Assembly (NCBI GenBank): GCA_003024785.1
Contig: PUQB01000230.1
Coordinates: 1-64,000, forward strand
DNA: 64,000 bases
Source of the DNA: Selaginella tamariscina
Lineage: Eukaryota > Streptophyta > Lycopodiopsida > Selaginellales > Selaginellaceae
Direction: 5' to 3'
A program made the translations under genes and the position numbers. Under the pieces are notes generated by a model. It ran no database searches, had not been told where the DNA came from, and was given only the letters and a program-made list of their open reading frames with translations. Positions 3,897-52,888 of this stretch are shown in pieces. Every line of letters begins with the position of its first letter. Positions within the stretch are counted from its first letter, which is position 1.

Positions 3897-3993
3897 TCGA
3901 GCACTTGGACTTCCCGAGTGGTCACCCATATTCAAGCTCAAACACGCTTTACTTCGGAGTTCTGATGCGATCCGGTGCAATCGTGTTGATATA
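3897..3993 (-). pseudogene. 5S rRNA pseudogene
   Basis: Read on the minus strand this follows plant 5S rRNA from about base 10 to the 3' region. It includes CACCGGATCGCATCAGAACT, CTCCGAAG, the A-box region (plus 3936-3949) and the C-box region (plus 3909-3930; GGGTGACC and GGGAAGTCC are intact). The stretch between A box and C box is about nine bases shorter than in plant 5S and the intermediate element is lost, so I doubt it is transcribed. The first nine or so bases of 5S are missing; in their place stands the 3' end of element B1. A Cassandra-type LTR also carries 5S sequence and cannot be fully excluded, but no LTR ends are visible here. The comparison is with plant 5S from memory. Confidence 0.75.
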
Positions 3994-6811
3994 AAGGAAT
4001 GTTTAAAGTTTATTCATGGGGCTAAATACAAGTGTACATAAAAACATTCCAACGGATTTTATATAAACCTACTCTTATTCCCATCCCCCTAAACCCAAGC
4101 ATCGTTGAGTGTTCGAAAAGAAAGTAATCGATTTAGACCTTTACGGTCTAGTCTCTCGCCCGGATACTGTCTCGAGCTTCAATCTCCAAACCACAGCTCA
4201 CAAGCACACACCAAAGAAAAAAGCAAACACAAACAAACAAGGCCAAACCAATCGCAGCAGATGCCCAAAGTAGCTTCATCACAACCATATAGCATACCAC
4301 ATACACATCCACCAAGATCACACATCAAATGCCAAGGATATGCCCAATACGCATCAGAATGACCACTTATTGCAAACACACCAAACCTCTTCGTAAACAA
4401 GAACCATCGTTGAGTTGCCCTCTTAAAGATACCCATTAAACCTTAGAGCAATCCCTAGCAAACTGTATAGCAAATGCCTATCAAAGAGGAGTAACACCGT
4501 AAAGCACACCAAAGCAACAAGCAAACGCACAAACAGACGAGGTCAAACCAATCTGCAGCAGATGCCCAAAGTAGCTCCATGACAACCACTATAGCATTTG
4601 CCATCAAAGAGGAGTAACACCGTACCAGAATAACCATACTCGTTTCCAAGCATGGGAGCCTCACGCTCGGGTGTACTAGGCTCAACACACGCCGACAAGC
4701 CATAAATGGTGGTCCTTACCACCTCAAACATGGGCCGCACTTCCACTAGTAGCTCAAGTCCCGGGAAGCCGACTCAAAAAGATGCCACTACTGAACCAGC
4801 AAGAGGCAATGAAGTGCAAAACGCAAATGCTTGAACCAACAAAGTGTATAACTCCTTCTAGACACCCAACCAGCACACGTGTTCGGGGTCTTCAGTCTCT
4901 GACCATTCAGCACAGGCCCGTAGGCGGTGCCTAACCCGAATTAGTGAGCCATCAAGTGCATACGAATTTGCCACACAGCTTTGCCCATCACCGCAAGTGC
5001 CACAAGGAACAACCAATGTCGCCAGGAACACGACCATCCACATACACATACGCAAGTGCCAGCAACATGTCACTCGGGTCTTCAGTCCTCTGACCTTTCA
5101 GCACAGGCCCGTAGGCGGTGCCTAACCCAAGCAACGAGCTAATCAAGTGCGCATGACACCAGAAACAACCAGCATCACAGAAACAACCAACGTCGCAGGA
5201 ACACGACCATCCACATACACATACGCAAGTGCCTGAACCAGTAAATTGCATAACTTCTTCTAGGCAAACCAACCAAACCCGCAACATGTCACTCGGGGTC
5301 TTCAGTCCTCTGACCTTTCAGCACAGGCCCGTAGGCGGTGCCTAACCCAAGCAACGAGCCAATCAAATGCATCTCTGTCACCATGAAATCGCCACACAAC
5401 GTCACTCATTCATTGCACATCCACCAGAAACAACCAATAGAAACAACCAGCATCACGAAGAAAAGTCCGCACCACACAAAACAACCTCTAGAGACAACCA
5501 ACATCACAGAGAACAACCATCGACTAACCATGAAGCTTCCCTCAACAAAACCAATGACTATTGCCCCCACATGCAGACCAGAACAAGAGCAACTCCACCA
5601 AATCGCCATGTCTAGCCAAAAGGACCACCACTGAACCATGGTAATACTCGCAGATAGCTATGGGTGACGAGGCCATGCTGTAATCCGCATCATCATATGT
5701 ACCATTGCAGTTGATGACTTGCCCAGACTCCGCTTGCCGGGCTACAAGGGAGTCAGCAATATCGCTTTCAAACAAGACACAAACAACTTGATTTCGCAGC
5801 TCATACATGACAATCCAGGCTTGTCATGCATGGTAAGACCATGCTCCAGACCCACAATGACAACATCTACTCACATGACCTTATCAAAGTTGCCACATGG
5901 TTTACCCCTTCTGGGAAATGCAGCAAAACCTAGAATCGCACAAACAACCAACATCACAAGACTGAATCCGCACCACACCAACCACATACACGTCGACTAA
6001 CCGTGAAGCTTCCTCAACAAAATCAATGACCATTGCCCCACATGTAAGACCAGAACAAGAGCACACTCCACCAAATCGCCATGTTTAGCCAAAAGGACCA
6101 CCACTGAACCATGGTAATACTCGCAGAAGCTATGGGTGGCGAGGCCATGCTGTAATCCGCATCCTCATATGTACCATTGCAGTTATGACTTGCTACAAGG
6201 GAGTCAGCAATATCGCTTTCAAACAAGACACAAACAACTTGATTTCGCAGCTCATACATGACAATCCAAGCTTGTCATGCATGGTAAGACCATGCTCCAA
6301 CCCACAGCAACAACATATACTCATATGACCTCATCAAAGTTACCACACAAGTTTTACCCCTTCTGAGGCAAATGCAGCAAGACCTAGAATCGCACACATA
6401 CCCTTCGAGAACTCCAAATTTCTCTCCAAAACTTGAGGAGAGGCTAAGAGACCACACCCACTACCCATCTCCTCAATTTCATAAAAAACCGAGCAATCAA
6501 GGCACATGCATCAAACCCTAGAGTGAACCCTAGCATCGCACACATACCCTTCGAAATTCCAAATCCTGCTCCAAAACTTGAGGAGAGACGTAAGAGACCA
6601 CATCCTCACTACCCATCTCTCAATTTCATCAAAAACCTGAGCAATCGAGGCGCATATGCATCCAATCCTAAAACTCACCACATAGTCGAAAAGCTCCAAA
6701 AAATTCCTTCGAATCGAGTCAAAGGGTCATCAAGACATCACCATGCAAACATTTAACACTCCAGATGCCCCACCGCCAAGGCGGCTAAGGTTTGCAATCA
6801 GCAATCGTATT
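3994..6811 (-). mobile_element. Non-autonomous non-LTR element B1
   Basis: The 3' end is at low coordinates. In sense direction the last bases are GCCCCATGAATAAACTTTAAACATTCC, shared in position and largely in sequence with the LINE 3' ends, followed by the 17-base junction motif (3977-3993). A second motif (6812-6828) lies at the 5' side. Inside are a duplicated 3' module (about 4200-4290 and 4500-4590), three copies of a roughly 200-base unit with GCACAGGCCCGTAGGCGG (about 4911, 5101, 5321), a duplicated segment (5601 and 6076), and two copies of a 150-base 5' unit (about 6400, 6540). No reverse transcriptase or other known domain appears. Short coding-like stretches recur in all copies, but I do not recognise them. 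Confidence 0.7.
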
Positions 6812-6941
6812 ACAATCGTGTTGATATAAAGGAATGTTAGAAGTTTATTCATGGGGCAAAATTACAACCAACAATTCCAAGTTTTCCCCTTACTTTCTAT
6901 GCCGTCGAACTACTTCGCTAACTAACTCAAGAATACTAACC

Positions 6942-7108
6942 TTAGCCCATGTTCCTCCACCTCACTACGTCAGCAGCCACGTCATCAGCCACGTCGGCAG
7001 CCACATCAGCAGCCACGTCATCAGCCACGTCAGCACCATGTCAGACAGCCAAGACAATGCCACGCCAGAAAAGCTCATACGCACCTGGTTCCTCATCCGT
7101 GGGAATCC
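6942..7108 (-). pseudogene. Putative acidic-repeat ORF3 remnant (L1)
   Basis: Overlaps the end of ORF2 in another frame. The start codon seen in L8 is ACG here, and there is an in-frame stop after LAV. Beyond it the frame reads the DVAADVAADV type repeat and ends DVVRWRNMG-stop, like L6 and L8. It may be only a by-product of the GACGTGGCT repeat. Confidence 0.35.
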
Positions 7109-7909
7109 ACTAACCACCTAGGTGGGCTCCATCTCCACTTCACCTGACTTTGAAGTTTCACTCCAAGCAGTGGAAGCCACTGTCTTTCTAGTAAATCCCT
7201 CTCCTCCAGATCCCCTCGTTCCCAAGAAACCTCATGGTGGGAGGCCATTGCCGATACCAGTGTAGTCCAGAAGAAGACAACCGCGCGCTGAGTCGTCCAC
7301 CTCCTCCCCTTGAACACCCCTGCGTTCGTGAGCGCCAGATTGCCCACATGGTGCAGCCCCGAATGAAGTACCACTGGCTCGATGACATCCCCGGCGGCTC
7401 TTCCACTGTATCTAAAGCAAGGCCTGGACTGAAGCTTGGAAGGTCTCTGTTCCCCTTCACAACTCACACGCCGGCTGACTTTGAAACATAGACTGCATGC
7501 TCCCAAGGCAAGTAGCTCCCAGCTCACTAGCACGTCCTGCTGACATACCTGCTTCACGACACGCAACGCATGAGCCCAGATTTCTTGCGCGCACACACAC
7601 TCCAGAAACAGTGCCGCTCCAATTCCAACGTCCCGCAAGCCTCACACCCCTGAAACGGGAGTCCCCAGATATTAACTGCGCACAGCCAGATTGTTCTGGA
7701 GAAGCATCCACATCATCGCCTTAATTGCTGCCGGCCACGGACCCGACCAAAGCTCCCGCCCGAAATCCTTGCTCAACCCCAGTAGCAATCTGCGTCCCAT
7801 TCCCGGCTTGTAATTGAAAAAGCTGCTCCCCGATTCTCTCCTGCAGTCCACCTCCATGCCTTGGGATCGAAGTCAAGTTTCTCCACAGCCCCTTTTCGGA
7901 AAAGGTACA
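7093..7909 (-). pseudogene. LINE ORF2 C-terminal fragment (L1)
   Basis: Three overlapping frames give the ORF2 C-terminus with frameshifts. The zf-RVT-like region, best seen in other copies as GCEACGTLES, is damaged here. The distal part has the IRGCTMWAIWRSR and FFWTTLVSA blocks found in L6 and L8, and the reading ends RWLVDSHG-stop. The catalytic reverse transcriptase core is absent. Confidence 0.75.
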
Positions 7910-7926
7910 GCAATCGTGTTGATATG

Positions 7927-9924
7927 AAGGAATGTTTAAAGTTTATTCATGGGGCTAAATACAAGTGTACATAAAAACATCCCAATGGATGTTATATAAA
8001 CCTACTCTTATTCCCATCCCCCTAAACCGATTTAAGACCTTTACGGGTCTAGTCTCTCGCCCGGATACTGTCTCGAGCTTTCAATCTCCAAACCACAACT
8101 CACAAGCACACACCAAAGCAAAAATAACAAAACACAAACAAACGAGGCCAAACCAATCGCAACAGATGCCCAAAGTAGCTCCATGACAACCACTATAAGC
8201 ATACCACATTAACATCCACCAAAGATCAAACATCAAATGCCCAAGGATATGCCCAATACGCATCAGAATGACCACTTATTGCAAACACACCAAATCTTCG
8301 TAAACAAGAACCATCGTTGCAGTTGCCCTCTTAGAAGATACCCATTAAACCTTAGAGCAATCCCCTGCAAACTGTATAGCAAATGCCCATCAAAGAGGAG
8401 TAACACCTTATCAGAATAGCCATACTCGTTTCCAAGCATGGGAGCCTCACGCTCGGGGTGTACTAGGCTCAACGCACACGCTGACAAGCCAATAAAGGTG
8501 GTCCTTACCACCTCAAACATGGGGCCGCACTTCCACTAGTAGCTCAAATCCCGGTAAGCCGACTCAAAAAGATGCCACTACTGCAACCAGCAAAAGGCAA
8601 TGAAGCGCAAAACGTAAATGCCTGAACCAACAAAGTGTATAACTCCTTCTGACACCCCAACCAGCAACACGTGTTCGGGGTCTTTCAGTCTCTGACCATT
8701 CAGCACAGGCCCGTAGGCGGTGCCTAACCCGAATCAATGAGCCAATCAAGTGCATACAAATTTGCCACACAACTTTGCCCATTCACCGCAAGTGCCACAA
8801 GGAACAACCAACGTCGCCAAGAACACGACCATCCACATACACATACGCAAGTGCCAGCAACATGTCACTCAGGGTCTTCAGTCCTCTGACCTTTCAGCAC
8901 AGGCCCGTAGGCGGTGCCTAACCCGAGTAGTGAGCCAATCAAGTGCATACGAATTTGCCACACAGCTTTGGCCCATTCACCACAAGTGCCACAAAGAACA
9001 ACCAACGTCGCTAGGAAACACGACCATCCACAAACAACCTCTAGAAACAACCAGCATCACAAGGAACAACTCCGCACCATACCAACATCCACACACACGT
9101 CGACTAACCATGAAGCTTCCTCAACAAAATCAATGACCATTGCCCCACATGCAAGACCAGAACAAGAGCAAACGCCATCAAATCGCATGTCTAGCCAAAA
9201 GGACACCACTGAACCATGGTAATACTCGCAGATAGCTTGGGTGACGAGGCCATGCTGTAATCCGCATCCTCATATGTACCATTGCAGTTGATGACTTGCC
9301 CAGACTCCCGCTTGCCGTGGCTACAAGGGAGTCAGCAATATCGCTTTCAAACAAGACACAAAACAACTTGATTTCGCAGCTCATACATGACAATCCAAGC
9401 TTGTCATGCATGGTAAGACCATGCTCCAGACCCCAGCAACAACATCTACTTATATGATCTCATCAAAGTTACCACATGATTTTACCCCTTCTAGGCAAAT
9501 GTAGCAAAACGTAGAATCGCACACATGCCATCTGAGACTCCAAATTTCTACTCCAAAACTTGAGGAGAGGCATAAGAGCTCACACCCTCATTACCCATCT
9601 CCCCAATTTCATCAAAAAATGAGCAATCAAGGCGCACCCTAGAGTGAACCCTAGCATCGCACACATACCTTTCGAAACTTCAATCTCTGCTCCAAAACTT
9701 GAGGAGAGACGTAAGAGACCACATACTCACTATCCATCTCTTCAATTTCATCAAAAACCCAAGCAATCGAGGCGCACATGCATCCAATCCTAAAACTCAC
9801 CACATAGTCGAAAAGCTCCAAAAAACTTCTTCCGAATCAAGTCGAAGGGCCATCAAGACATCACTGTGCAACATCTACCATTCCAGATGCCCCACCACCA
9901 AGCGTTAGGCACCAAGGCGGCTAG
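7927..9924 (-). mobile_element. Non-autonomous non-LTR element B2
   Basis: Same family and orientation as B1, flanked by motifs at 7910-7926 and 9925-9941. The 3' end has the shared AATAAACTTTAAACATTCC block. It carries two copies of the GCACAGGCCCGTAGGCGG unit (about 8701, 8897), one copy of the CCATGGTAATACTCGCAGAT region (9214), and two copies of the 5' unit (about 9535, 9655). It lacks the duplicated module of B1. No known protein domain was recognised. Confidence 0.7.
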
Positions 9925-9941
9925 GCAATCGTGTTGATATG

Positions 9942-10423
9942 AAGGAATGTTTAAAGTTTATTCAAAAACCTACTCTTATTCCCATCCCCCTAAACCCCAA
10001 GCATCGCTGAGTGTTCGAAGAAGAAAGTAATTGATTCAGACCTTTACGGGTTTAGTCTCTCGCCCGGATACTATTTCAAGCTTTAATCTCCAAACCACAG
10101 CTCACAAGCACACACCAAAGAAAAAAGCAACACAAACAAATGAGGCCAAACCAATCTGCAACAGATGCCCAAAGTAGCTCCATGACAACCACTATAGCAT
10201 ACAATACACATCCACCAAGCTCAAACATCAAATGCCCAAGGATATGCCCAATACGCATCAGAATGACCACTTATTGCAAACACACCAAACCTCTTCATAA
10301 ACAAGAACCATTGTTGCAGTTGCCCTCTTAGAAGATACTCATTAAACCTTAGAGCAATCCCCCGCAAATTGTATAGCAAATGCCCATCAAAGAGGAGTAA
10401 CATCGTACCAGAAAGCCATACTC
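9942..10423 (-). mobile_element. Non-autonomous non-LTR element B3, 5'-truncated
   Basis: About 480 bases of the B family 3' part, between motifs 9925-9941 and 10424-10440. A short deletion relative to B1 and B2 removes the bases after GTTTATTCA near 9963. The 5' truncation lies in the region that is 4640 in B1. Confidence 0.75.
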
Positions 10424-10440
10424 GCAATCGTGTTGATATG

Positions 10441-10761
10441 CTGAAGTTTAGAAGTTTATTCATGGGGCAAAATACAACAAACACTTCCAGGTTTTCTCTT
10501 CTCTACATTCTACTCTGCCTAAGGACCTCTCTAACTACATCATAACATTATGTATACAAGCCCGCACTCCGACTGCTACCTCTATGTTCACATCCTCAGC
10601 CACATAAGCAGCCTCACAAGCAGCCACGTAGGCAGCCACACTAGCAACCACACAAGCAGCCACGTCATCCCCCACGTAAGCCACACAAACAGCCATGTAG
10701 GCAGCCACGTAAACAGCCACGTAAGCAGCCACATAAGCAACCACGCAAGCAGCCACGCAAG
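10441..10761 (-). mobile_element. LINE copy L2, 3' end only
   Basis: A 5'-truncated LINE of the same subfamily as L4: the 3' terminal sequence (TGCTGAAGTTTAGAAG...) is almost the same as at 21650. The rest is an array of GCAGCCACGTAA-like 12-base units (about 10600-10760). It is cut off inside the array, directly at the next junction motif (10762-10778). The minus frame 10535-10765 is an AAYVAAYV repeat with no conventional domain. Confidence 0.75.
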
Positions 10762-10778
10762 GCAATCATGTTGATATG

Positions 10779-11700
10779 TAGGAAGATTATTTGGTTATTC
10801 AAGGTGCATTTACAAGAAAGTATTTTTCTTCCTAGTTTTTCTTCGCTTGTTTCCCTCGCCGTCTACCTACTTGCCTCTAAGTCTGTTGCAAAATTCTGTA
10901 CATCGGTCGTGTCATCTCTCCGCATACTCCTCCCCGCCAGCAACCACTTAGCCCTTGGTTTTGTTGCAAAAACTGTGCACCAGTCATGTCAACTCGCCAC
11001 GTTCTCCTCCCATGAGAAGTCTCTTCTTCCCTTAGTCTGCTGCAAAATCTATGCATCGGCCACGTCATCACACCACTTAACTCATCCCCGCCAGCAGCCA
11101 CTTCATCTGCCACGTTCACAGCCATAATCATCTGCCACGTTCACAGCCATATCATCTGCCACATTCGCAACCATGTCATCTTCTCTGCGCCATCCCCGTC
11201 AGCCTGACTTCATCCTAGTCATCACGTATATGTCTGCCGCCATGTCAACCTCTCCAGTATTAGCTCTCTAGTCCCTTCAAAGTAGTATTCACACGGTATT
11301 TGTAAAAGTGTCCGCCTTGCTACCAAGGTACCACGTAACTAAGCCATCATTATGAGCAGGCTAAACTTCTCTCCCTAATGCTCCCATGGGGAGCAGGAAA
11401 GCATGAAAGGGAGCGTAGCTTCCCCGCCTGAAGGATCACTTCTGTAAGCACAAGGATCGGGAGATTCTCAATAAGCCAAACTTCTCTCCTTTGTGGTTCC
11501 CCTGGGAGCCAAAGCATGAAAGAGAAACATTCCCCGCTTACAGGAACCATCCGTCACTCATTCCGTTCTACAAGACCAGGTCGCGAAGGGCACTCTCTCT
11601 AGGCTCGAAGTCACTGACTCAATGTTCAGCACACCTGACAACCTCACGGGTACTCCTGTGTCTACTAACCTTGCGGGTACTCCTTGTCATGACACCAGTA
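10779..11700 (-). other. 3' region of L3
   Basis: Non-coding tail. It has CTGCCACGTTCACAGCCAT-like repeats at about 11090-11180 and the paired hairpin unit. The terminal block is more diverged from B and other LINE copies (TAGGAAGATTATTTGGTTATTC), similar in layout to L7. Confidence 0.65.
11361..11555 (-). repeat. Twin hairpin repeat in the 3' region of L3
   Basis: Two direct repeats about 115 bases apart, each with a short inverted repeat: GCTCCC/GGGAGC at 11380-11394 and GGTTCCC/GGGAGCC at 11495-11510. L7 has the equivalent pair at 36521-36536 and 36636-36649 with changed bases. Such structures in LINE tails can be recognised by the element's own reverse transcriptase; that role is inference here. 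Confidence 0.6.
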
Positions 11701-14700
11701 GCCATCTCGGGGGCTCCACCTCCAGCCTGACTTGGTTCTGCCGTTTAGTCCCCAAGCATGGTATCCATAGCCGCTCCATCAAATCGTGTTCGTTTAAGTC
11801 CCCCTTTCGCGAGACATCTCATGATAAGATGAGACGTCGAAACTAGAGTTGTCCAGAAAAATGTTACTGCTCGCTGAGTTGACCACCTTCGCCTTTGAAT
11901 ACGCCTGCATTCGCGAACGTCAGATGGTCCACAGTGCGCAACCTCTCACGAAGTACCAGTGTATCGAAGAAATACCTGGCGGTTCCTCCACTGTGTCCAT
12001 GGTTAAGCCGGGATTAAAACAGGGGCGCTCCACACCAGCAGCTTTTACATCCACACTCCGATGGACTTGGCTAAGTGAGATGCATGCTCCCCCAGACACG
12101 CAATTTCCCAGCTTATCAAAGCGTCCTCTCGACTCAGATGTTGCACCAACCTTAAAACATGTGCCCATACCTCACGTGCGCATATACATTCCCAAAAGCA
12201 GTGCGTTCTATCTCCAGTGTACCACAAGCTTCGCAACCCTGATACGGCAGTCCCTTCACATTACCCGAACTTGCTAAACTGTCCTGTAACATTAGCCACA
12301 TCATGGTTTTGATACTTGACGGCCATGCGCCTGCCCACAGCTTCCTTTCGAAATCTTTGCTCAACCCGTGTGGTAATCCTGCAGCGTGCAGCTGATCTTC
12401 TTCCCAAGAAACAGCCTCCTGCCCATGCGCGGCTCATAGCTGAAGAAGTCCCCCCCTGCTCGCTCGAATTCCAGCCCATGCCTTTGGATCAAATGTAAGC
12501 TCCTCTACTGCCTGCTTGCGAAACCAGTACAATATCCTCCACTCGCCGTGCCTAACCCTCGGATCCACAATTAAACGTTTCCATTCCATGTCCACCACTC
12601 GCACCAGCTTGGCATGTGTTAAATCTGGCAATGGTTCAATCCTCACTCGGTGGGGATGCAGCAGCCCGTCCTTACCAGGGAATCTCGCCCCTTCACAGCC
12701 TATTCTGTCATATATATGCCACACTGGTCTCCCAGTACGATCCAATTTCCGTCTACAAATTCCTGTGTTTGCCATGCACTTGACTGTCGCAACTTGTCTC
12801 GGCCACCAGTAGCTCCTCACAGCTTGTAGCATTGACTCTGTCGCGGATCTCATGTGTGATCCTTCCCATTGTCTGATCCACGTGTCTGGTTCTCCTCTGT
12901 CGACGTCAGCTCATCCAATTGATGCACCGTGCGCAGCCCTGCTCTGTGCCAACGCTAAACGTATCTCGAAGTACCTGTGGTGATCTCTCATCACCCAATG
13001 GGCAGCCATCCTCTGAGCTCATCAATGCGTGTAAAATATTGGATGCCTTGCATATTCCGCTTTGCACCCTGGCATCTTTGGACATAGAGCTGCCTTCAAC
13101 TTTTCCCAACTGCTCAGTAGTTTGCCGCAAAAAGACTCACGCACCACAGGCAGTTTCAACATCGATGTTGCAATATCCATCTGTCATCCCGTGCCCATTC
13201 TGCTATTCGTCCTGTGGAGTGTGCCGGACGCACCCTCGCCATTATATCTCTGAGCATGACTTTCCACGGTTGCGCGCCCGGCGCCAACCTCGGATCACTA
13301 GCTTCACCAGCAAAGCTTTAGCCGCTTCCGTTGGTGGAATCAAGCCTAGTCCCCATCAGCCTTGGGCATTGTACAAGATTCCCACCTCACTCTCGCCTGG
13401 TAGGCCTTGTTGACCGCTCCTTTCCAGATATATACTCGGAGCAGCACTCTATCTTCCTCATTGTTTCCACGTTGATGCTCCAGGTGCCTGCAAAAAACCA
13501 CAAACTCCCTAACAAACACTGTTAGCGACTGTCACTCGAGCTGGAATGACAATTGCCGTTCCCCACTGGTTCAAATGACTGGCCACGCATTGAGTACAAA
13601 AGAACTTTGTCGGGCCGGGCAGTAACTGCTCCAATCTGGAAACCCAAGTACCGCGTCGTGGCTCCTTTCTCAACCCATGAAACCCCCACTCTCCTCCCCA
13701 GTCCGGATGCTTGCCTTCGCCAATCCAAATTCCGCGCGATTTATTCCAGTTGGTACGCGCCCCTGCTGCTAGGTTAAAGCGTTCTAACAATCTTCGAACC
13801 CTGTCCAAGTTCTGTGCATCCCCAGCTAGCAAGAGGCTTGTGTCATCTGCGAATAGACTATCCAGCACGTCCCTCTGATGGGAGGTCCCAGATCGCTAAT
13901 TCCCCCTGACACTCTAGTAGTGGTATGCCCATCGGTCTCATTGGTCGAAGCGTGGACATGTGCGCATGCATGGCCTCTGCTTGCATCAAAAACAAATATG
14001 GCGCTAGCAGGCAACCCTGACGCACTGATCTCTGCAGTACCATGGCTGGTCCAAGCTTTCCGTTTAGCAGCAAGTGGCTCTTTGCACTTCGATACAATTT
14101 GGCCATCCATCCGATGAAACTTGCGGTATCCCCTTGCGCTCATAACTGCCTCCAGAAAACCCAATCTACGCGGTCATATGCCTTCTCTCTGTCCAGCATT
14201 AGCAAACAGAAGTCTCCTTCTAGTTCCTGCACTCTCTCCCCAGCTAGGAGTAGTGTGGCCACGTTTTCGTACAGCTGCCTTCCCCTTACAAATCCGCACT
14301 GCGATTCTCCGATTATGACTGCATCATGGGACGAAGCAATTGGCCATGGTCTTGGCTATGATCTTGTAGATCGTGTTGAGCATAGAGATGGGCCTCCAGT
14401 TGCGCACTTGCGTGGGATCTGCCATACCTTCCTTCGGAATGAGAGTAATCATGCTACTCGTGAAGGCCTCGGCCCATGGCTGACCTTCTGGTCCATTACA
14501 CACCGCTGTCCATTCATTATGCATAGCCTCGCCTAACCAATGCCATGACTGGGCAAAGAATTCCACCGGGTCCATCAAGTCCTGGCGACTTATCCCGTTT
14601 CCATAACTCCCGCATTGCCATGTGCATTTCTTCTTTCGTAAAGGGACGGGTCAACTTGTTGGACATTTCCTGGGTCACACAAGGTCTGAGCAGGGCCAAA

Positions 14701-24276: not shown

Positions 24277-24293
24277 GCAATCGTGTTGATATG

Positions 24294-34693: not shown

Positions 34694-34695
34694 CT

Positions 34696-40946: not shown

Positions 40947-40948
40947 AT

Positions 40949-42629: not shown

Positions 42630-44400
42630 CTCGTCGATTGAATTTGGATGTAATAAAGATGTGTGAAATAAAGATCAATTTTGGCAAAGGTTCTCAAAAT
42701 ACTAATAATATAGCAAGGGCAGTTCCTGTCCAAATCAAAGATTGGAAGGCTAAGCTAGACTTAGTTGTCTTGAATATGACGGGGTTTGACTTTTGTTTTG
42801 GGTATGGAATGGTTCCATAAACATGTAATCGAAATGAGGGGTTCGGAGATAATCGAATCACGCTTGCAGCAGATAAAAGAACATTAGAAAACACGCTCAA
42901 ATGGAAACGCTAACTGATAAGGATTGGAATCCTATGTTCCTTACCTTAACTCAGTTGCGTAAGGCAGTTAGACATCGGGAACGTGTGTTTCTTGCAATGG
43001 TTTTGGATACTGGTGAAGTCAAAATAGGAGATGGTCAAGAATCTGTTCCTGAACCTATTTTGGAAGTCTTGAACATGTTTAGGATGTGTTGCCAGAAGAC
43101 TTGCCGCCGAGTTACCTCCACGTCGAGCTGTGGACCACAGGATAGAGATTTTGCCAGGTTCGTCTCCACCGGCAAGAGCCCCATATCGGTTGAATCCTCA
43201 AGAGTTAGTAGAATTGAAGAGACAGCTGACAGAATTGATTGGTCGAGGACACATTCGACCTAGTCGATCGCCATGGTGCACCTATCTTGTTTGTAATGAA
43301 AAAGGATGGTACGATGCGAATGTGTGTGGACTATCGAGCGCTGAACGCGATAACTATCAAAAAATAAGTATCCTCTTCCACGAGTGGACGACTTATTTGA
43401 TAGGCTATCAAAAGCAAAGTATTTTCAAAATAAACTTGAGATCGGGTACCATCAGATTCGGGTAGCAGAGAATGACATTGAGAAGACCGCTTTTCGAACG
43501 CGTTATGGATCATTTGAGTTTCTAGTCTTGCCATTCGGGTTGTGCAATGCTCCAGCAACTTTTTGCACAATGATGGATGATGTGTTTAGAGACTATCTAG
43601 ACGAGTTCGTAGTGGTGTATATTGATGACATTCTGATTTTCAGTTCGACAATTGAGGAACATGTGGAACACTTAGAAAAAGTGTTTCAGAGGTTGAGAGA
43701 GAACCAGTTGTATGCTAAAGAAAGCAAGTGCGCATTTGGTCAAACCAAGATAGATTTCTTGGGACACTTGATCTCAGGTGGGGAGGTTGCCATGGACCCA
43801 AAGAAAATTCAAGCTATTACTGAGTGGATGACTTTAAAAGATGTGCATGAAGTTAGATCATTTCTTGGTCTGACAGGGTATTACCGAAGATTCATAAAGG
43901 GTTACTCGAAATAGCGGCCCCATTGACAGATCTTACGAAAACATTCCATGGCATTGGACTCCAGAGTGCCAACGTGCGTTCGTCAAACTCAAAGAGGCTA
44001 TCTCTTCTGAGCCAGTTTTGCAGTTGCCCATCTTTGAAGATCCCTTTGAAGTAGAATGTGACGCTTCCGACTTTGCAATTGGTGGTGTATTGCAACAAAA
44101 AGGACATCCAGTGTCCTTTTTCTCGAAAAGTTAGATGCCGCAAACTCGATGGCCTACTCACGAAAAGGAGATGTATGCTATTGTTGCTTCCTTGGAGTAT
44201 TGGCGTCATTATCTTCCAAGTCATGGCACTGTGGTTTGGACAGATAGTGTAACTCTAAGGTATTTTGAAACGCAGCCGAAGCTATGCCGAAGTATGCTAG
44301 ATGGCAGCAGAAGTTGGCACGATTTCAGCCTGAAATCAACATAAGCGGGAAAGGACAATGTGGTAGCTGATGCACTCAGTAGAAAGGGTCATCTTCGATT
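42630..44400 (+). pseudogene. Protease end, reverse transcriptase and RNase H (gypsy-2)
   Basis: The protease C-terminal part is 42638-42820 (MNLDVIKMCEIK). The reverse transcriptase N-terminal part is 43130-43465 and the main frame 43384-43914, with [17 protein letters not shown] and catalytic YIDD at 43618-43629. The connection [11 protein letters not shown] is followed by a one-base loss (43912) and the RNase H in shifted frames (VECDASDFAIG, TRWPTHEKEMYAIV). It copies the RNA genome to DNA. Confidence 0.87.
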
Positions 44401-45660
44401 ATGTCAGCACCCGTGTCAACTTTGGTGGATGAATTTGTGACGGCGTATCCTCAGGACAAGTTTGCTAAGGAGCTTTGAGCCTGGTGGCAAAGAGGAAACA
44501 AGTTCATCAATTACGAAGAGATGGTAATATTCCAGCAGGAATAGAAAGTCGAATGGATGCACTCAAACAGGCCCATTTTGCGTACGAGATGGAGTTCTTT
44601 ATTATAAAGAAAAGAGACTCTATGTTCCAGAAGGGACATGGAGGGAGAGGCTGTTAAGAGAGCATCACGACGTTCCTTTGGCAGGACATGGTGGAAGGCA
44701 TAAGACGTTGGCTTTGTTGAAGGGATTCTATTGGTCGGGTTACGTTTGGTTGTGGACTACAGGGGTTTGAATCAAGTCACCACTTGGAATCGGTACCCGT
44801 TGCCATTGATCCCGGAACTTCTCGATCGGCTGCGAGGAGCAGGTGTTCACGAAGATCGACTTACGAATGATTTGCCAAGTATGTCAAGACATGCCCCAAT
44901 GTCAACAAGTAAAGAGCCGATCGCAAAAATGAGCTGGAAAGTTGCAGTGTATACCGATTCCAGAGCGGCCATTTCAAAGTGTTACTTTGGACTTTATCAT
45001 GGGATTGCCAAAATCTTCTGGTTTTAACGCACTCATGGGGTAGTCGATCGATTTTCAAAGGTTGCTCATTTCATTCCAACTGTAGAGACAGTGAATGCAA
45101 TTCAAGCAGCGAAGTTGTTCTTCCACGAAGTCATAAGAGTGCGCGAACTACCGGAAACCATGATCTCAGATCGGGATCCTCGGTTTACGGGGAAGTTTTT
45201 GGGGGACATTGTTTAAGCAATTTGGTACGATGCTCAAGTTCAGTACGGCCTACCATCCGCAAACTGATGGTGAAACGGAGAGGGTGAACCGACAAGTCGA
45301 GGACTATCTCAGATGCTATGTTCAAGGTGATCAACTTGATTGGGCTAAACACTTAGATATGGCTGAGATATGTTACAATAACTCGATGCACACAGCGATC
45401 GGATGTAGCCCGATGGAAGTGTTAACTGGGAATAAGGGTGGTATTCCTCAAAGTATGGTGTTATCGAAAGACAATAGCAATCGAGTTCCATCTGTAGCAG
45501 AGTTCACAGGACAATTGTATCGAACATGGGAAGCAGCTCGTCAAGCGATGGCTACAACACAGGAAAGATATCGTCAGCAGTACGATAAGCATCAGCGGGA
45601 TGTAGAGTATCAGGTTGGGGACATGGTATTGTTGAGTACCAGAAACTGAAGGTTCCAACG
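44401..45660 (+). pseudogene. Integrase (gypsy-2), with a foreign block inside
   Basis: The N-terminal region (44475-44710) is followed by a block of about 130 bases that is not integrase, then returns to the zinc-finger part, [13 protein letters not shown] in the shifted frame. The core has MISDRDPRFTG (shifted, about 45160) and AYHPQTDGETERVNRQVEDYL (catalytic Glu, about 45280), with a long frame 45209-45649 ending VGDMVLLSTRN. Strand transfer of element DNA is its role. Confidence 0.85.
44739..44868 (+). other. Foreign reverse transcriptase fragment inside integrase
   Basis: Reads [20 protein letters not shown] and [16 protein letters not shown], a reverse transcriptase segment of the Ty3/gypsy type but different from this element's own ([20 protein letters not shown]). 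It replaces the junction GGGTATGATAGATGATGTT that gypsy-1 has at 28340. Confidence 0.85.
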
Positions 45661-45705
45661 ACTCTTTCAAAGAAGTTTTCTATCGCACTACATAGGCCAT
45701 ACAAG

Positions 45706-46057
45706 GTGGTGAAGCGAGTAGGGAAAGTGGCTTATGGGTTAGATCTTCCTCCAGAGTTGGGAACAATACACAATGTGTTTCATGTCAACTTGCTTGAGCC
45801 ATTCCACAAGGATGAGAAACATCCACATAGATATCATAATTTACGTCCGCCTCCAGAGTTAGTTGGTGAGGAGAAGAATTTGAAGTTGAGGCGATATTAA
45901 AGGGGCGAAACATTCATGGACGGCGAAAACGTAAACGTGAATATCTTGTTAAGTGGAAAGGGTACCCGGCATGCGAGTCGACATGGGAACCATTGGAGAA
46001 TCTGCAGAACACGATGGAGTTGGTGAATGAGTTTGAGACGAGGTCTCAAACTGATTA
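45706..46057 (+). pseudogene. Integrase C-terminus and chromodomain (gypsy-2)
   Basis: VKRVGKVAYGLDLPPELG and FHVNLLEPFHKDEKHPH lead into a chromodomain (about 45900-46040) with REYLVKWKGYPACESTWEP. A one-base loss near 45877 (GEEKNLKLRRY) shifts the frame before the chromodomain. It is otherwise the same as gypsy-1, and its end continues GLKLIKK-like into 3' UTR, not into LTR. Confidence 0.85.
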
Positions 46058-46431
46058 AGAAATAAAGTTTCTTCTTAACCTAGGGGCCGACAGACAACCT
46101 TAACTAGAGGCCTCCAATATAAATTCTAGTTAACTTAAAGAAATTAACTAACCTGTTGTCTGTGTCGGGGACAGACTTTGCAGACATGCAAAAGGTCTCA
46201 AATGACTTCTTGTCGCAGGTGGTGCTCTGGCAGCTGAGTTCTCGCTCAGTGAATGACGGTTCTAAAGTATTTGGCTTCGCATAATGCAAGGAGGGTAATA
46301 AAAACTTGTGAACTTTTTGCTGACTCTGCATAGAGTGATTAGTGTTAGTTTTCAGTTAATTTTTCCTAACCTAGTCTAGTTTTGGAGTTAGACGTCAACG
46401 AGGACGTTGACATTCTCAAAGGCGGGGAGTG
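46058..46431 (+). other. 3' UTR and polypurine tract of gypsy-2
   Basis: Non-coding 370 bases, absent from gypsy-1. The purine tract AAAGGCGGGGAGTG (46418-46431) directly precedes the 3' LTR and primes plus-strand synthesis. Confidence 0.85.
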
Positions 46432-47410
46432 TGTCATAGTTTTTACTATGACTCGACCTTTACTTTGGGGTTTGACTGTTGTTACTTACCGAGTTGTGTG
46501 ACGAACCCTAGTTGTAGTAGGAACAGGCCCGTTTAGTGCACTTGGGTATCTAGTGATGGTCCGGCGCGGTGTCATTAGGTATTTGCAGGAAACTCTAGGC
46601 GAAGCTAGAACTTACCTTCTAGAAACTCTCCCCCGGTTTGACGTTCCAGGTTAGGGTTCTTTGCAAAAGTATAGCTTGTCAAAATAAGGGTTAGGGACAC
46701 TCCTAGGGTTGACCTAACCCTAGAGTTGCCTAACCCCACGCCTTAATACCCCCCCCTAGGGGTTAGGTTTAGGGTTAGGTTAGGACAGTTTCTCTAAGGG
46801 CTGGCATTTCCGTGCTAGCCCACTTACTCATTTAGGTAAACAGGGGGGGGGGGGGGGGGTCCGTCACATAAATAAGGTAGAGTGTATGTAGTGAGGCTTC
46901 CTGGGTTCAAAAGAGAGCTCGTTAACCTCCTACTAGTGCAAGCTAAGCTTGTGTCGTCAAGGTGCACTCTCCGTTTGCCGCCCAAACTTCCACACGACAG
47001 GGGTACAACCCACCCTAGGGTTAGACTATCCTTATCGTTGGCAGGATCTTGCCTTTGAGATAGGGGCACGTCACTTCCAAGGAGTTAGTCAGATTCCTTG
47101 GTCCGAAAACCTGCCGCAAGCTCAAAGACATTGCCCGAGTTCACGTTCCGCAAAACTAGTGGTTGAGGCCTTGCTCCGGCCGCCTCAACCACGCCAAGCT
47201 AGGAACGACACCTAAAGCTCGGCTAGTCTGTGTATCTTGATTCACAAGGTGAGTCTCGTTTGTGGACTTAGTCAGCTAGGGGTTTGACTTCCTAAGGCTT
47301 GGGTTCCTAATACGGGTTACTTTACCAGTTTCGTGGGGTTTCCAAGAGAGGGGATTCTAGGGTTGGCACCTGGCAAGCCGCCTTTGTGGCACCAGGTAAA
47401 AACTCTGACA
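46432..47410 (+). mobile_element. 3' LTR of gypsy-2
   Basis: Nearly identical to the 5' LTR. It has 17 G in a row at 46843-46859, then TCCGTCACATAAATAAGG. It ends CTCTGACA, followed by the CCCAC duplicate of the target. Confidence 0.92.
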
Positions 47411-48670
47411 CCCACTCTCATCATTCCTTCCAAATCTTCCTGCAACATCCCTTCGTCGTCTAACAAGCCGAGAATTGGTTTGTTTTTTTAGGGTTGGTTT
47501 TATTGCTCAATAGAACTCTGCGTTGAGTCTCCGCTCATTTGAATACCACCTCTGTGCCCTCAACCTCGTGTGCCTCCAAGTGACGCATGAGAATTTCCTT
47601 CCTAGCTATCAGCCACTCATTCTCAGGGTGCCGCCTCATCAACCTTTCACATGCAACCACACTGTTCCACACTGCTCGAATGCCTGCAAATGCCCTTCTG
47701 TACTTGGCACCCTGTCCTTCCCTGCATATGCTTGACACTACCTGCAAATATTCTTCCAACACCGGACATCCATTCTCCGCTCTTGCCTTCCTCTCAAGCC
47801 ACATTTCCTCTAGCAGGCTTTGCACCTCCGGGCTAGAGATATACCTTCTGGTAATGGTCGTCGGACGTGGGGGAAGATTTGATCGATTTCCTTGTTGAAC
47901 AACATGGAAATTGGTGCATGGTCGGAAAGAGTAAATCCTCCCACCTTCTCATGCTACCACACATTCCCAGCAGCCACTGCGTGCCATAGATCTTGTCCAG
48001 CCTACGCTGTATGACACGACCTCCTTGCAATACGCCCGACCTCGTAAACTGTGGCTCATGGTCTTTATACGTCACACTACCATACATATCCTGGACCCCT
48101 AATGCCACTTGCAACGCACGCCACGCTTGCTGTTCAATCTGGCCACACACGGATGCTTCATATTGTCAAAACAATGCTCTGTCCGACGTGTCCTCTGCCA
48201 ACTCAATCATGTTAAATCGCCACAAATTATCCACTCATCAACCTCCTCTGGCACCTTTTCCCTCAGCTCTCTCTAGAATGCAATCCGCTGTTGATCTTCC
48301 GTTGGGGCATAGACATTCAATAACCCCACACTCTTTCTCTTAACTTTCAACACCACATACTGAGCTCTGCCCCGGATTATGATGCCCTGTCTTGAGACCG
48401 CGCCGGCCCATCTTCTGCTCAAGCATACCAATGTTCCCCCGTTCTACCCAATGCTGGATTCCAAAAATGAGTATACCCCGGCAAAATCCAGCTTCCCTCT
48501 CCCATCATCGATGCTGCAATGTGATGTTCCTGAAGTGCTAAGATATCCACCACTGCTGTTTCTACTTTGATCTCCGCCAAGTGCAAACTCAGCTTCTCCC
48601 TTTTCCTCTGTCCGTATGTGTCCGCATTCGCCAGACCTCGGACATTCCATGTCAATATGTGAACATCCAT
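47411..48670 (-). pseudogene. LINE ORF2, 5' part with AP-type endonuclease (L7)
   Basis: Starts at 48670 with MDVHILTWNVRGLAN, overlapping the ORF1 stop by one base (TGATG). LALQEHHIAAS and GYTHFWNPA follow. A frameshift lies around 48200-48400, then VALGVQDMYGSVTYKDHEPQ (48100) and a damaged SDHAP region near 47930. The linker (47535-47825) has WLIARKEILMRHLEAHE. Gypsy-2 is inserted shortly before the reverse transcriptase. The enzyme would nick the target DNA. Confidence 0.85.
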
Positions 48671-51600
48671 CACTTGGTTGTTGGTGATGGTGGGTCAGGC
48701 ACTTGACCCGTGTCCTCCACCCATCCCAACTCATTCGGCAGCTCAAAACGAAGCCCAAACCATCTGATTTCAGCCACAACAAAATCTTGTCCTGGCTGTC
48801 GCTTTGCAGGTACCAACACTATGGAGCCTGGATCTCGTCCCACAATACTCTCCACAAACGGAGTCAATTCTAGTTGCAAGGGTATATCGTCGCACACTGG
48901 TGCCACCAATGGACCAAAACCCCCCTCTAGGATACGCATCATGAGCAAGTCACGCTTCCTCCATCATCCTCGTTTACCTTCCACACGTATAAACGGCATG
49001 GCCATGGCGGCTTTGCAGAACCCTTCACGCCGACCCGTCTGGTTGGGCGGTCAAGAGATTCCTCATCTTGCGGTTCATGATTGAGGATCACATGAACCTG
49101 ACTCGGAAGAAAATCAGGTGCCGGACTACCCTTTTCGGAAGCCCTAGGCATCTTCGGTGGGATCGTTGGATCTTCTCCCCGTGAAAGCTTCACTTTCCAA
49201 GTCCTCTTAGCTTTCTTCCCTAGTTTCGGGTGCAACTTCAACCCTTGTGTTAACTTCGAGACTTCTCTCTTCTTTGGAAACTTCTTCCGTTTCACACTTC
49301 CAGGCTGCGAGGTACTCGGTTGGTTTGTGCCATGGCCTAGCATGGTTTCTGCCTGTTTGTTCTCCTGGGATTGTTGCAAAGCCACAAACTTCCTGCCCAT
49401 TGTCGTTTTGATTGGTGTGACTTGCCCCGATCTGGGGGAAGACACTACCTTTTTCCCTTTGGCCGCTGTCCATCCCTCTTCCTCTGGTTGGTTTGTTTTT
49501 GCCGATTGTTTTCTTGCCTCTGTCCAGTCTTGCCGTTTCTTTCTGGCTGCTAGTACTGGGCATGTTGCTATCACATGCCCATTAACCTTACAAAACCGAC
49601 ACGCAAGTTTGCCTCCTCGCAAGGTAATTTTACCTTGACTCTATGAATGGACAGTTCCTTGGGCACTTCTGCCACTGTAGTGCCCCTCAACTTCATACGC
49701 ACTGGACCTCACATCCCTGGGGCTGGTTCCCAAAAACCATACTCCGCAGCCCCTAGGTCTTGAGCCACTCTATCCATCAGTGGTTCTATTTTGCAAAGAA
49801 AGGTCGGTAGATCCCAAAGTTCAATCTCTAGATCATCTTCCTACGCCAGATAATGATCCTTGTCTTCCGGATTGCACTCTGGAATCCATTTAAGCACCCT
49901 TGCCCAGTACGGGTTTAGCCCGAAGGTTCCCTGCGCCACAAAAGCATCCAAACACATGGCATCACTCAATTCTCCTTCAAAACATCCACGGCCTAGATTC
50001 CACATGCTAATTACAGAGCACTGCAATCCCAGATCACCCAGGGCTGTATTTATCCAGTCTTTTATTTCAGCCGTCGATGGAATTCTACCTCCAAATATCA
50101 ACGTGAACATGGTACCTCGCGCTTCATTTGCAGGCGAGTCTCTTCAATGATGCGTAGCTCTTCCTCCGTTAGCTCCATCACCATCCGATGTCCACCCTCA
50201 AGCTCCTCCATCCTAGAGAGTTGAGACCGATCCGCAATGGCAACTTTACGGGTACCACCAAGGTAGGCTTCATAATCTTCAACGATGCAGGTAAAGCTTC
50301 CTTTCCTTTCCACGCGCTCGTCTTAACCTTTGCCAATGGTGTTCACGCTTGAGTTCCATTGTCCCCTACTGTCGTATCCGACAGTCCCATTGGTTTGTCA
50401 CTTAGAGAAATCCGCACTTCTTGTTCCTCCCCCACTGGTAGCTTTCCGACTTTTTCTCTACAATCGCCCGATCTGAGACTATCTCTACCTCTCCTCCTAT
50501 TTGCATTTCGCCTGCTGCTCATGATCCGTCTCTTGCATTTGCTCTGCCCGTGCACTTTCCAACTGTTGCGTTCCAGCTTCTCCATGTTGCTCAGCACCTC
50601 CGCTCTCGGCTTCTTGTCCGTGGTCTCTTCCATGTCCTCTTCCATGTCCTTTTCTATGTTCTTGAATGCATCTTGGATCACCTTTGCCAACACTAATTGC
50701 ACTAACTCTTTTGCATTTATGTTGTCTGCCCCGTCCTTCCCGTTTGTTTCCTGCTCCACTTGTCCGTCCATTCTACCTGCACTGCTACCTCTCCTTGACA
50801 CCGGCATCTCCCCTAAATCTTCATACTCCGATAACACGCCGCTCAAACTTGTCACTTGGTTACCACTCTCCAGGCTAGATCTGCGTTTGGGATCCGTTTC
50901 CATGTCCTTCAGCAATTTTTCCCATGCCACCTCATCCGCTAACCGTTCCCGACTCTTTTCTTGTAGTTGCCACTCTCTCTCTGCATCTTCTTTGCTACCA
51001 GCTAGACTCCACACCATCCTTGTGGGTAATGGAGGAAGTACTTCCATGCCTGCCCACAACACTTCCATTGCTCCTTCTTCAACGTTTAATAACTCAAAGG
51101 TATGTGAGTCCCATCCAAACCTCTCCATACACATTTGTTCTAACGCCATCAGAAAGGTCTCCTCCAAACGCCTAACCACCATCAGCCCATTCCAGACCCC
51201 ACCTTCATCCTTGTGCAACAGCACCCTCTCTTTGCCTTCGCAGTCCATTAATTTCAACTTTACCAAGCGCTTTCCATGTCGTTGTCTTCATGGATTTGTG
51301 TCACCACTGTCCCGCCAGAGCGATCTCCTCGCAAACGCACCAACCAGTCTTCCAACTTGTCCCAGCACTCCTTGCAGCACCGGTTTAACTTTTGTTCCCG
51401 TTTCCACAGTGCTGATTTGAGCCTCTTCCACGCGCACCCCTCGAGCTTGCAATGCCAACACACGCATGATTTGATAATTTATCCGTTCGCACATTATGCT
51501 CCCTTGCAACATGCTTCATATCCACCTTCTCAAATTGAGTCATTAAAATGCACACTCGCTCATGCAGAACTCGTAAACCGTCTGTCCAAACTTTCACTTT

Positions 51601-52053
51601 CCCTTGCATCTGCTGCACCATCAACTTGGAGTCGCACCTGATTCGAATCTTCTTCACACCCTCCGTTCTTGCTAGCATTAGACAAGAGTCAGTCCCAATA
51701 CTCCGCTTGATTGTTTGTTGCAAACTTCAACGGCTAGATCACTTCCTTCACCATTTCCCTGTTTCCTTGCTCAACGTTGCTCCCGCACCTGCTGCTCCCT
51801 TTGGATTATCTTTTGCTGCCCCATTCGTATGAAGCACATACCAGACACTTTCTTTCTCCTGCACTGCTTCCATCGCTCCAAACTCCTGCTCCAAATTACA
51901 CACTGTCGCTTCCTCTCTTTCCACACCTAGCGCTATCTCCGAGTCCTCTGTCAACCCTGCTAACCTCAACCTCCTTGTAGACAAAACTGAACCTTCCTTT
52001 CTCGCCATATCGCTACTCTTCGTGGCCCCAACTAGGCACTTACAAGCACACAA
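48670..52053 (-). pseudogene. LINE ORF1 with N-terminal RNase H, gag-like region and CCHC knuckle (L7)
   Basis: Best-preserved ORF1. N-terminal residues are followed by RNase H: WYVLHTNGAAKDN (Asn where Asp is expected), TNNQAEYW (then a stop), RCDSKLMVQQMQGKV and HVAREHNVRTDKLSN (52000-51430). The frame continues CCKECWDKLEDWLVRLRGDR into 50343-51266, a 307-residue stretch with KLMDCEGKERVLLHK, PPLPTRMVWSLAGSKEDAER and a basic part. Next come MFTLIFGGRIPSTAEIKDWI (50110) and NLGRGCFEGEL, a gag-like domain, then zinc knuckle CRFCKVNGHVIATC (about 49590), a Lys-rich tail, and end DPPSPTTK. RNA binding and particle formation are its likely roles; that of the RNase H is open. Confidence 0.8.
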
Positions 52054-52843
52054 CCACTTGGCCCAGACTAGGCTCTTACAAATGCATCAACAAACGAGTC
52101 GCATACCCAACAAACCCAACCAGCATTAACCGTATCCCTGACTTTCCTCAAGTCTTGCACACCCGGACTGGTCCCCAGCAAGGCTAATTGCCATACATGT
52201 TGACTTGAGTTGTCAGGAGAACCACCTGTTGCATATATGTGTATTATGCTTACCTCCTACGAGCAACACCCTTCTTCTCACTTCAATGTACTTGGTTCTA
52301 CTTCCCGCGCACACTCTGCTCCTTCCCCGCAGCCCTAATTTGAATGCCCTGTTTTTAATTTTCAATTTTCCTAATCTCCTTGAACCCTAACCCATGTTTT
52401 CTCTTTTGATCAAAAACCGCTCCTCGCCTTCGATCCTCTCCAAATCCTATCTTTCCAACATTGCCTCCTGCAATTCCTGCCTTGCGTACAACACTCAAAC
52501 TCCAATTTCCTATTTTCCGACTACCACACCTGTTCTAACTCTACCCAACCTAACCCTACCTCACCGGCTGCCTCATCTCCTCCAATCTGCTCCTCTACCT
52601 ACTTCCACTGCCCAACTCACCTATGGCTCTCTTTCCTAATGGCTCCTGAGGTTGCCCAAACTACTTCTTTTTCTGATTCCTGTCTACTACGCTACATCTC
52701 GCCTAAAACCTCTTGAACACCCAAAAAACTGCCTAAAGCACCCAGCGCTTGGGTGGCGCCATCCCTATGGACCTCTAGCATGCCTCCTACATGCTTATCT
52801 CTCTTAGATCCTCAACTCCAAACATTTCCACAATCTCAATCGT
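52054..52843 (-). other. 5' UTR of L7
   Basis: No supported gene. It is colinear with the L3 5' UTR. It ends at the motif 52844-52860. Confidence 0.6.
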
Positions 52844-52888
52844 TCAATCGTGTTGATATGAAGGAATATTTGCAATTGTGTTGATATG
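52844..52888. repeat. Double junction motif with an 11-base filler
   Basis: Motif copies at 52844-52860 and 52872-52888 around AAGGAATATTT. The filler is almost the same as the last bases of the B family (AAGGAATGTTT on the plus strand), so it looks like a B or LINE insertion that kept only 11 bases. Confidence 0.75.

Follow-up and report, generated by a model that had tools for sequence, protein, structure and literature searches.

Chains of L1-like LINEs inserted at a fixed base of 5S rRNA genes in Selaginella tamariscina

A stretch of 64,000 nucleotides from Selaginella tamariscina (positions 1 to 64,000 of contig PUQB01000230.1, assembly GCA_003024785.1; hereafter the window) carries a chain of non-long terminal repeat (non-LTR) retrotransposons, all on the minus strand, whose junctions are marked by a 17-nt motif. 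We report that this motif is a target-site duplication generated in the 5S rRNA gene. Several related families of L1-like long interspersed nuclear elements (LINEs) with a predicted apurinic/apyrimidinic endonuclease (APE), and a companion element (B), very probably insert at one base of this gene by target-primed reverse transcription and form chains by inserting again into the duplicated target. LINEs directed to 5S genes are already known in fish; apparently new here are base-precise 5S-inserted LINE chains in a plant. The window is the first part of contig C539 in a genome of 300.7 Mb and 1391 contigs; further contigs and loci are designated by C and L numbers.

Results

The junction motif is a segment of the 5S rRNA gene

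Fourteen copies of the 17-mer occur in the window at three mismatches or fewer, all on a single strand, against 0.23 expected (100 shuffles, maximum 2). A fifteenth copy, at 19748, has a one-base deletion and hence four mismatches when read in fixed register. Genome-wide, 241 copies were found at two mismatches or fewer, versus 18 for the reversed control; the two counts together rule out a chance origin. The original prediction, made from the window sequence, had described fifteen copies on one strand, each at the 3′ end of an element devoid of poly(A). Number and orientation are as described and no poly(A) was seen at any of the 15 sites, but the placement needs qualification. An element 3′ end, usually AATAAAC...TTCC plus 2 nt (variants are found at 10424, 10762 and 19773), lies immediately before the motif at 12 of the 15 copies. 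The remaining three are inner members of doublets, preceded by a bare 11-nt piece of the element 3′ end (copy 52844), by ATGTTGGGT, corresponding to 5S bases 1-9 with one change (copy 21614), or by a filler of 8 nt (copy 19748).

A genome-wide search with the Rfam 5S model returned at least 27 matches (47 of 7286 candidates were scored). Five of these are intact and identical, 119 nt long, score 99.5 bits each, and consist of ATGTCGGGT, CATATCAACACGATTGC and ACCGGATCCC joined in this order. The 17-mer corresponds, without change, to bases 10-26 of this sequence. As many as 17 of the 27 matches have an element 3′ end directly before the boundary between bases 9 and 10; the other ten comprise the five intact genes, two intact members of a second 5S-like family, a degenerate copy (L032), a remnant (L035) and a third 5S-like sequence (L034). 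The second family (GAGTGGGATCATACC...) resides on C531, intact in L014 and L015 and broken at base 9/10 in L027; the third sequence (C1010:58826-58935) lies on the opposite strand and adjoins an element 3′ end. In the window, the 3′ part of a 5S gene (model positions 9-111, 3902-3994, minus strand, RF00001 54.6 bits) is joined straight to the 3′ end of the first chain element, with the junction at base 9/10, in agreement with the earlier statement that this site runs on into 5S at about base 10.

The two halves of the gene were also sought with separate patterns, the 5′ half being defined as the upstream flank plus bases 1-26. There are 20 places with a 5′ half and 19 with a 3′ half, including five adjacent pairs that are the intact genes. 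Fourteen of the 20 5′ halves lead into an element and 14 of the 19 3′ halves have one just before them (all were read); one further 5′ half, on C868, is that of the degenerate copy. Genes broken at base 9/10, which the original prediction had suggested looking for, thus exist in number. So do chains with 5S bases 1-9 at their 5′ ends, but not in the window's own chain: neither the 5′ part of its outermost LINE (52889-58533) nor any 5S 5′ half was found within the window. Behind a 5S 5′ half and its rDNA flank we read 14 distinct 5′ junctions, two of them (L081 and L129) outside the 20 pattern places; these must therefore be separate insertions. Chains with both ends assembled (C225, C438, C458, C462, C531 and C1348) begin with 5S bases 1-26 and finish with bases 10-119; on C1348 the end pair is 36 kb apart. 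At L016 (C272:11047-11148) the 5S body ends shortly past its 3′ end, joined to B-element sequence, probably through a later deletion.

The motif is a target-site duplication

Mutations in the motif track places, not element families, and the motif is therefore a 17-bp target-site duplication rather than a part of the element. The variant CATATT is present in 4 of the 55 listed 5S-type junctions. All four are on C225, where they stand behind two 3′-end families and in the 5S body of the chain itself (hypergeometric probability 4e-5, in a test made after the data were seen). Among the listed flanks, the variant TATATC is found only at window positions 3977 and 6812. Some observations weigh against such a strict association with places: CATATT is not confined to C225, occurring also in a 5S 5′ half on C842, and C225 has CATATC copies as well, its 5′ half among them.

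At a number of junctions, nothing lies between two motif copies except the final 4-15 nt of an element (L008, L043, two in L045, L046, L084, L085, and window positions 52861-52871). The sequences of these micro-insertions include CCTT, TTTTAAACATTCCTT, GAAACATTCCTT, AACATTCCTT, ACTTCCTA and, in the window, AAATATTCCTT. They probably represent events in which reverse transcription halted at once. In a different target, a tRNA-like short interspersed nuclear element (SINE), a 672-bp element lies between identical 16-bp copies of CATACGGACAAGTTGG, a sequence unlike the 5S motif; the empty, uninterrupted site is present in L125. The reading under which the original prediction would fall, with the motif internal to the element consensus and no 5S sequence around other chains, is not what was found: 5S sequence does flank other chains.

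Re-insertion and segment copying in chain growth

All copies on any given contig are on one strand in the list of 100 exact motif places; among near-copies, C313 is an exception, with two in opposite orientation (L046, L117). Neighbouring elements in the window vary in 3′-end family, length and 5′ truncation, and where they could be matched their identity to reference copies is 71-88%, which fits repeated insertion. Nonetheless, some units did not arise by independent insertion but through the copying of entire chain segments. Several data speak against a purely insertional history: motif spacing is near-equal on C272, C634 and C828, and chain copying inflates the counts, as illustrated by L036 and L037 (98.9% identical) and by the near-identical spacing of C634 and C828, which may be two versions of one locus. 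The claim that head-to-tail chains arise by re-insertion is upheld by the micro-insertions and by the 14 distinct 5′ junctions, with the proviso that part of the units were copied as segments. On C828 (L080, position 28738), a (TAAACCC)n telomere-type repeat directly follows a target-site duplicate, where the next element should begin.

5S leaders at element 5′ ends

Many elements carry an additional piece of 5S sequence at their 5′ end. Such a leader was scored when a 5S piece of at least 5 nt, ending at base 26, lay within 40 nt past the outermost motif, micro-insertions being skipped. Leaders are present at 18 of 22 full-length LINE ends, 13 of 35 full B ends and 3 of 30 other or truncated ends, with 2.9% in shuffled sequence; the difference between LINE and other ends is significant (Fisher 2e-7). 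Leaders start at many points: the latest start is base 22, while others reach base 1 (window 21631-21639 plus motif) or position -7 (L130). In L063 and L127, 5S sequence from about base 2 to base 26 is found on the element next to 13 nt that match the tRNA-Ser target. Altogether, the pattern suggests that the leader reflects element RNA starting in the 5S stub. A number of points count against this interpretation. The patterns defining the classes were broadened once a first, less strict count had been made (21/24, 15/33 and 5/35, with doublets counted), and the test sees only 5S pieces ending at base 26. L063 and L127 are probably copies of one event. The sequence CGATTGCG recurs beside several LINE 5′ ends, which may mean that the leader is an element 5′ end passed on by inheritance. 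Finally, 22 of the 35 full B ends have no leader.

Other targets and site preference

Exact element 3′ ends number 299 (114 and 185; reversed control, 0); in at least 100 of these, the next 10 nt are an exact match to the start of the 5S motif. We classified 199 of 200 listed flanks; the list is ordered by contig and hence biased. It contains 55 5S flanks, 23 in the tRNA-like SINE, 5 in tRNA-Ser genes and 108 unrelated ones, plus eight in rarer targets (three antisense tRNA-like, four at a site in the LINE's own open reading frame (ORF) 2, and one in the second 5S-like family). Unrelated 3′ flanks elsewhere had been named as grounds for abandoning the original prediction, and more than half of those classified are of this sort. 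The preference for 5S is strong without being exclusive. Likewise, the idea of one 5S-derived insertion site is correct in that the base is fixed within 5S genes, but too narrow, as tRNA-Ser, the tRNA-like SINE and dispersed sites are also used.

ARAGORN confirmed a tRNA-Ser(TGA) in L135 and L137, where the element ends before tRNA base 3. It detected no tRNA in the SINE-like target, nor in L133, L134, L136 and L138; L136 contains only the beginning of a tRNA-Ser. Because of this result, the SINE and the antisense target of L133 and L134 are termed tRNA-like by eye only. At least 524 copies of the SINE-like target occur at three mismatches or fewer; the repeat (e.g. L125) shows box A- and box B-like stretches, again judged by eye. 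Of 98 distinct unrelated flanks, 74 begin with C and 81 have A in second position. The context RT/CA (the slash marking the junction) is common to 5S (GGGT/CA), the SINE (GGAT/CA), the second 5S family (GGGAT/CA in the intact copies) and the ORF2 site (GGGAT/CA). The occurrence of the same 3′ ends across these targets points to an enzyme that would combine a loose cutting core with a strong bias to small-RNA genes.

The elements

Three full-size LINE copies were read (L036-L038), each about 8.9 kb long. In broken frames, they code first for an RVT_3-type RNase H (in the first ORF) and then for endonuclease (apurinic-type), reverse transcriptase and zinc-binding domains. Pieces of L037 and L038 gave matches to Exo_endo_phos (1.2e-9), RVT_1 (3.5e-8) and zf-RVT (2.6e-7); the RNase H match (9.2e-20) lies at L038:740-2317, in the first ORF and upstream of the endonuclease. 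Among solved structures, LINE-1 ORF2 is the best match to the reverse transcriptase segment. Endonuclease and reverse transcriptase domains, duplicates of 17 bp (5S) and 16 bp (SINE) and many 5′-truncated copies are hallmarks of APE-type LINEs, and on these predicted features the elements are classed as APE-type and L1-like. L037 and L038 are only 74.5% identical; several LINE families therefore use one site. The companion B measures about 2.5 kb, and its tail is similar to the LINE tail. No poly(A) tail was found, the longest A run, by eye, being 5 in the 12 nt of each of the 199 flanks. On the opposite side of the balance, the longest ORF in the three full-size copies is 526 aa and no intact ORF2 was seen among them, so present activity is not demonstrated.

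Genomic setting of the 5S genes

An interrupted 5S gene on C462 lies 6.6 kb from a 5.8S gene (142.5 bits) on the same strand, with a repeat-rich spacer separating the two (L126, C462:287100-294200). C225, which carries a 5S chain, also has the second-best of 11 5.8S matches. 5S and 45S genes are described as linked in bryophytes (PMC5021289), and physical linkage is likely here. Since typed 18S probes found no 18S between the 5.8S and 5S of C462 in L126, this linkage is read from 5.8S only. No 5.8S match was obtained on the intact-5S contigs C438, C472 and C1054, parts of which read N. Telomere-type repeats occur in the L126 spacer upstream of 5.8S. The TAAACCC repeat of L080 and a stretch of 5.8S sequence typical of plants agree with the plant origin; protein searches for named relatives gave 2 and 4 weak matches, with no organism named in any of them.

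Organization of the chain in the window

All units of the window chain are on the minus strand. The motif that begins the 5S body (3977-3993, bases 10-26) was identified by motif search and is of the TATATC... variety, with the same C-to-T change as the copy at 6812. Next to it lies a 2.8-kb element with a B-type 3′ end (3994-6811, ending in ...AATAAACTTTAAACATTCCTT), followed by a target-site duplicate of the form TATATC...GT (6812-6828, motif search). A 5′-truncated LINE of 1.08 kb (6829-7909), 84-87% identical to L036, is separated by an exact motif (7910-7926) from a B-type element of 2.0 kb (7927-9924); after another exact motif (9925-9941) come a 5′-truncated B-type element of 0.48 kb (9942-10423), a further exact motif (10424-10440), a short 5′-truncated element of 0.32 kb (10441-10761) and a duplicate with one mismatch (10762-10778). 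The 8.97-kb LINE at 10779-19747 is diverged but of full-length size, falling in the length class of L036-L038, with 72-75% matches in parts only. It is bounded by a doublet (19748-19789) with an 8-nt spacer, in which the 19748 copy has the one-base deletion. Beyond a B-type element of 1.8 kb (19790-21613), the segment 21614-21656 consists of 5S bases 10-26 (at 21640) and a sequence resembling 5S bases 1-26, made of ATGTTGGGT and the motif at 21614; the latter constitutes the 5S leader of element 19790-21613. The 0.32-kb element, the three B-type elements from 7927 onward, the 19748 doublet and the 21614 segment were delimited by junction reading.

In the second part of the chain, a 5′-truncated LINE of 2.6 kb (21657-24276; 73% identical to L036, 77% to L038) and an exact motif (24277-24293) precede a LINE piece (24294-31208) recognized by LINE comparison and split by an LTR-retrotransposon-like stretch with plus-strand ORFs at 25.7-29.5 kb, judged by eye. 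After a duplicate with one mismatch (31209-31225) there are a 4.7-kb LINE with an internal deletion (31226-35947; 84-88% to L036), an exact motif (35948-35964), and LINE remains with a nested LTR-retrotransposon-like stretch (35965-52843; plus-strand ORFs at 41.2-43.9 kb, by eye). The pair of duplicates at 52844-52888 (junction reading) encloses the 11-nt micro-insertion, equivalent to a bare element 3′ end. The most 5′ LINE matched in the window (52889-58533) is 84-85% identical to L036, from L036 position 2984 to the 3′ end. By eye, window ORFs at 25674-29532, 41178-43914 and 61493-62536 resemble LTR retrotransposons; the first two are inside the LINE chain.

Discussion

In the mechanism that we envisage, the endonuclease would nick the bottom strand at the position facing the 9/10 bond of 5S, in the context RT/CA, as the junctions imply. 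What is seen at the junctions is direct attachment of base 10 to the element 3′ end, which usually reads AATAAA...TTCC plus 2 nt and has no poly(A). A top-strand cut about 17 nt downstream would account for the observed duplication, yielding 5S bases 1-26, the element, and 5S bases 10-119. Each insertion leaves bases 10-26 on both sides, and later copies re-insert at these duplicates, as seen from micro-insertions and from chains of mixed families. The products are chains in head-to-tail order that can reach tens of kb; entire segments of them have been copied too. Full-length RNA would, with moderate probability, start within the 5S stub or immediately upstream of it, so that new copies carry 5S sequence. 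The same 3′ ends are found in tRNA-Ser(TGA) genes, the tRNA-like SINE, the second 5S-like family and dispersed sites mostly starting CA or TA, in keeping with an enzyme that has a loose core and strongly prefers these genes. A tentative extension, which we hold to be a little short of probable, is that LINE RNA has its start at base +1 of the stub or close to it. A chain would then be a set of self-renewing targets and promoters, spilling over into tRNA-Ser and SINE sites.

The presence of the motif behind many 3′ ends of several families, together with the duplicated chain segments, could also be explained if the 17-mer were a fixed element tail stemming from a past 5S capture and the chains were made by recombination. 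We reject this explanation and consider it extremely improbable: more than 100 identical 3′ ends elsewhere stand bare at non-5S sites, motif variants within a chain cross element families, 3′ junctions continue into the 5S body while the 5S 5′ half and its rDNA flank are present at 5′ junctions, and the SINE insertion has a 16-bp duplicate of its own. Tandem or segmental duplication of few insertions is also unlikely to be the main origin of the chains. The near-identity of L036 and L037 and the matching spacings of C634 and C828 are what such a process predicts; the micro-insertions and the 14 distinct 5′ junctions require separate insertions, and window neighbours differ in 3′-end family, length, truncation and identity to the reference copies. 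As for the leaders, slippage or template jumping at second-strand joining, or a 5′ end captured once, is a possible origin, somewhat less than evenly likely in our estimate. In its favour, fillers can be short or imperfect and are of widely varying length, and most full B ends lack a leader; yet leaders are concentrated at full-length LINE ends compared with other or truncated ones, and a leader was carried to a tRNA-Ser-type site in L063 and L127.

One might further suppose that the target is not a working 5S gene but a 5S-derived mobile repeat, such as a Cassandra/Ajax-like LTR or a SINE3-like element. The divergent 5′ end of the 5S sequence (ATGTCGGGT) and the hits in the second 5S-like family (L014, L015; interrupted in L027) would be compatible with this, and a tRNA-bearing terminal-repeat retrotransposon in miniature, Helenus, is reported from Selaginella moellendorffii in the cited text (PMC10886601). 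We regard this possibility as quite improbable. The target is the top-scoring 5S found among the candidates scored, with five identical copies whose repeat-rich flanks are conserved; its predicted fold retains the outer helix, although the energy is unremarkable (z -1.2). It lies on the same strand as 5.8S on C462 and is also present on C225, a 5.8S contig. Moreover, the 27 Rfam matches are never closer than about 10 kb on a contig, unlike paired LTRs: no close pairs of the Cassandra/Ajax type were seen among them, in an assembly with N stretches and in a comparison that did not include a search for LTR ends.

Sequence-specific LINEs of the Tx1 group are known for near-exclusive use of one target. 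The present elements do not, since 108 of the 199 classified flanks are unrelated to the 5S, tRNA and SINE targets. In plant L1 elements the RNase H is known from ORF2; here it is in the first ORF, upstream of the endonuclease. Plant L1 elements with an archaeal-type RNase H have been described (Smyshlyaev 2013, as cited in PMC4640811), and on that account share with ours the combination of endonuclease, reverse transcriptase, zinc-binding domain and RVT_3-type RNase H in one element. Utopia elements, as presented in PMC4640811, are LINEs of U2 snRNA genes, with oomycete members in which an archaeal-type RNase H lies upstream of the reverse transcriptase. They likewise target a small-RNA gene, but with a restriction-like endonuclease and U2 in place of the apurinic-type enzyme and 5S.

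In habit, the nearest named relative is Mutsu, a zebrafish non-LTR retrotransposon of about 5.5 kb with two ORFs that targets 5S (Kojima and Fujiwara 2004, as cited in PMC11202950 and PMC3706591). Compared by description, both are LINEs inserting in 5S rRNA genes, and the fixed 5S site of the Mutsu type is seen here in the 17 interrupted Rfam matches. Set against the published outline of Mutsu, the Selaginella elements are longer (about 8.9 kb), belong to several families, have a companion, form head-to-tail chains and use extra tRNA and SINE targets. TRE5/TRE3 and NLTR-A/B of Dictyostelium belong to the L1 clade and are directed to RNA polymerase III genes, 5S included for TRE5 (PMC5911963); they too are APE-type and L1-like. 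According to the same source, the TREs insert outside the gene within a window, a trait not found here, where a fixed base inside 5S or tRNA-Ser is used and the target is duplicated. Nested LINE clusters exist in the green lineage with Zepp of Coccomyxa/Chlorella, one per chromosome and probably centromeric (PMC3446292); the passages cited describe no 5S target for Zepp, whereas the present chains are seeded in 5S at a duplicated 17-mer. Jockey-like elements are regularly associated with the 5S arrays of Tribolium freemani (PMC11202950), another LINE-5S association, in this case in an insect and satellite-associated, with no base-precise 5S insertion described in the text cited. The original prediction knew of no 5S-targeted LINE in plants; we found none reported in the open-licence literature, a scope that makes this weak evidence of absence.

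The chains offer a naturally occurring series from which one can directly read how the target is duplicated, how chains grow and which nucleotides are reverse-transcribed first (the 4-15 nt micro-insertions). They raise the question of whether the gene that a LINE targets can also provide its promoter. They also raise that of how a genome copes when most of the assembled 5S copies found (14 of 20 5′ halves, 14 of 19 3′ halves) are interrupted, although collapsed arrays may hide intact copies.

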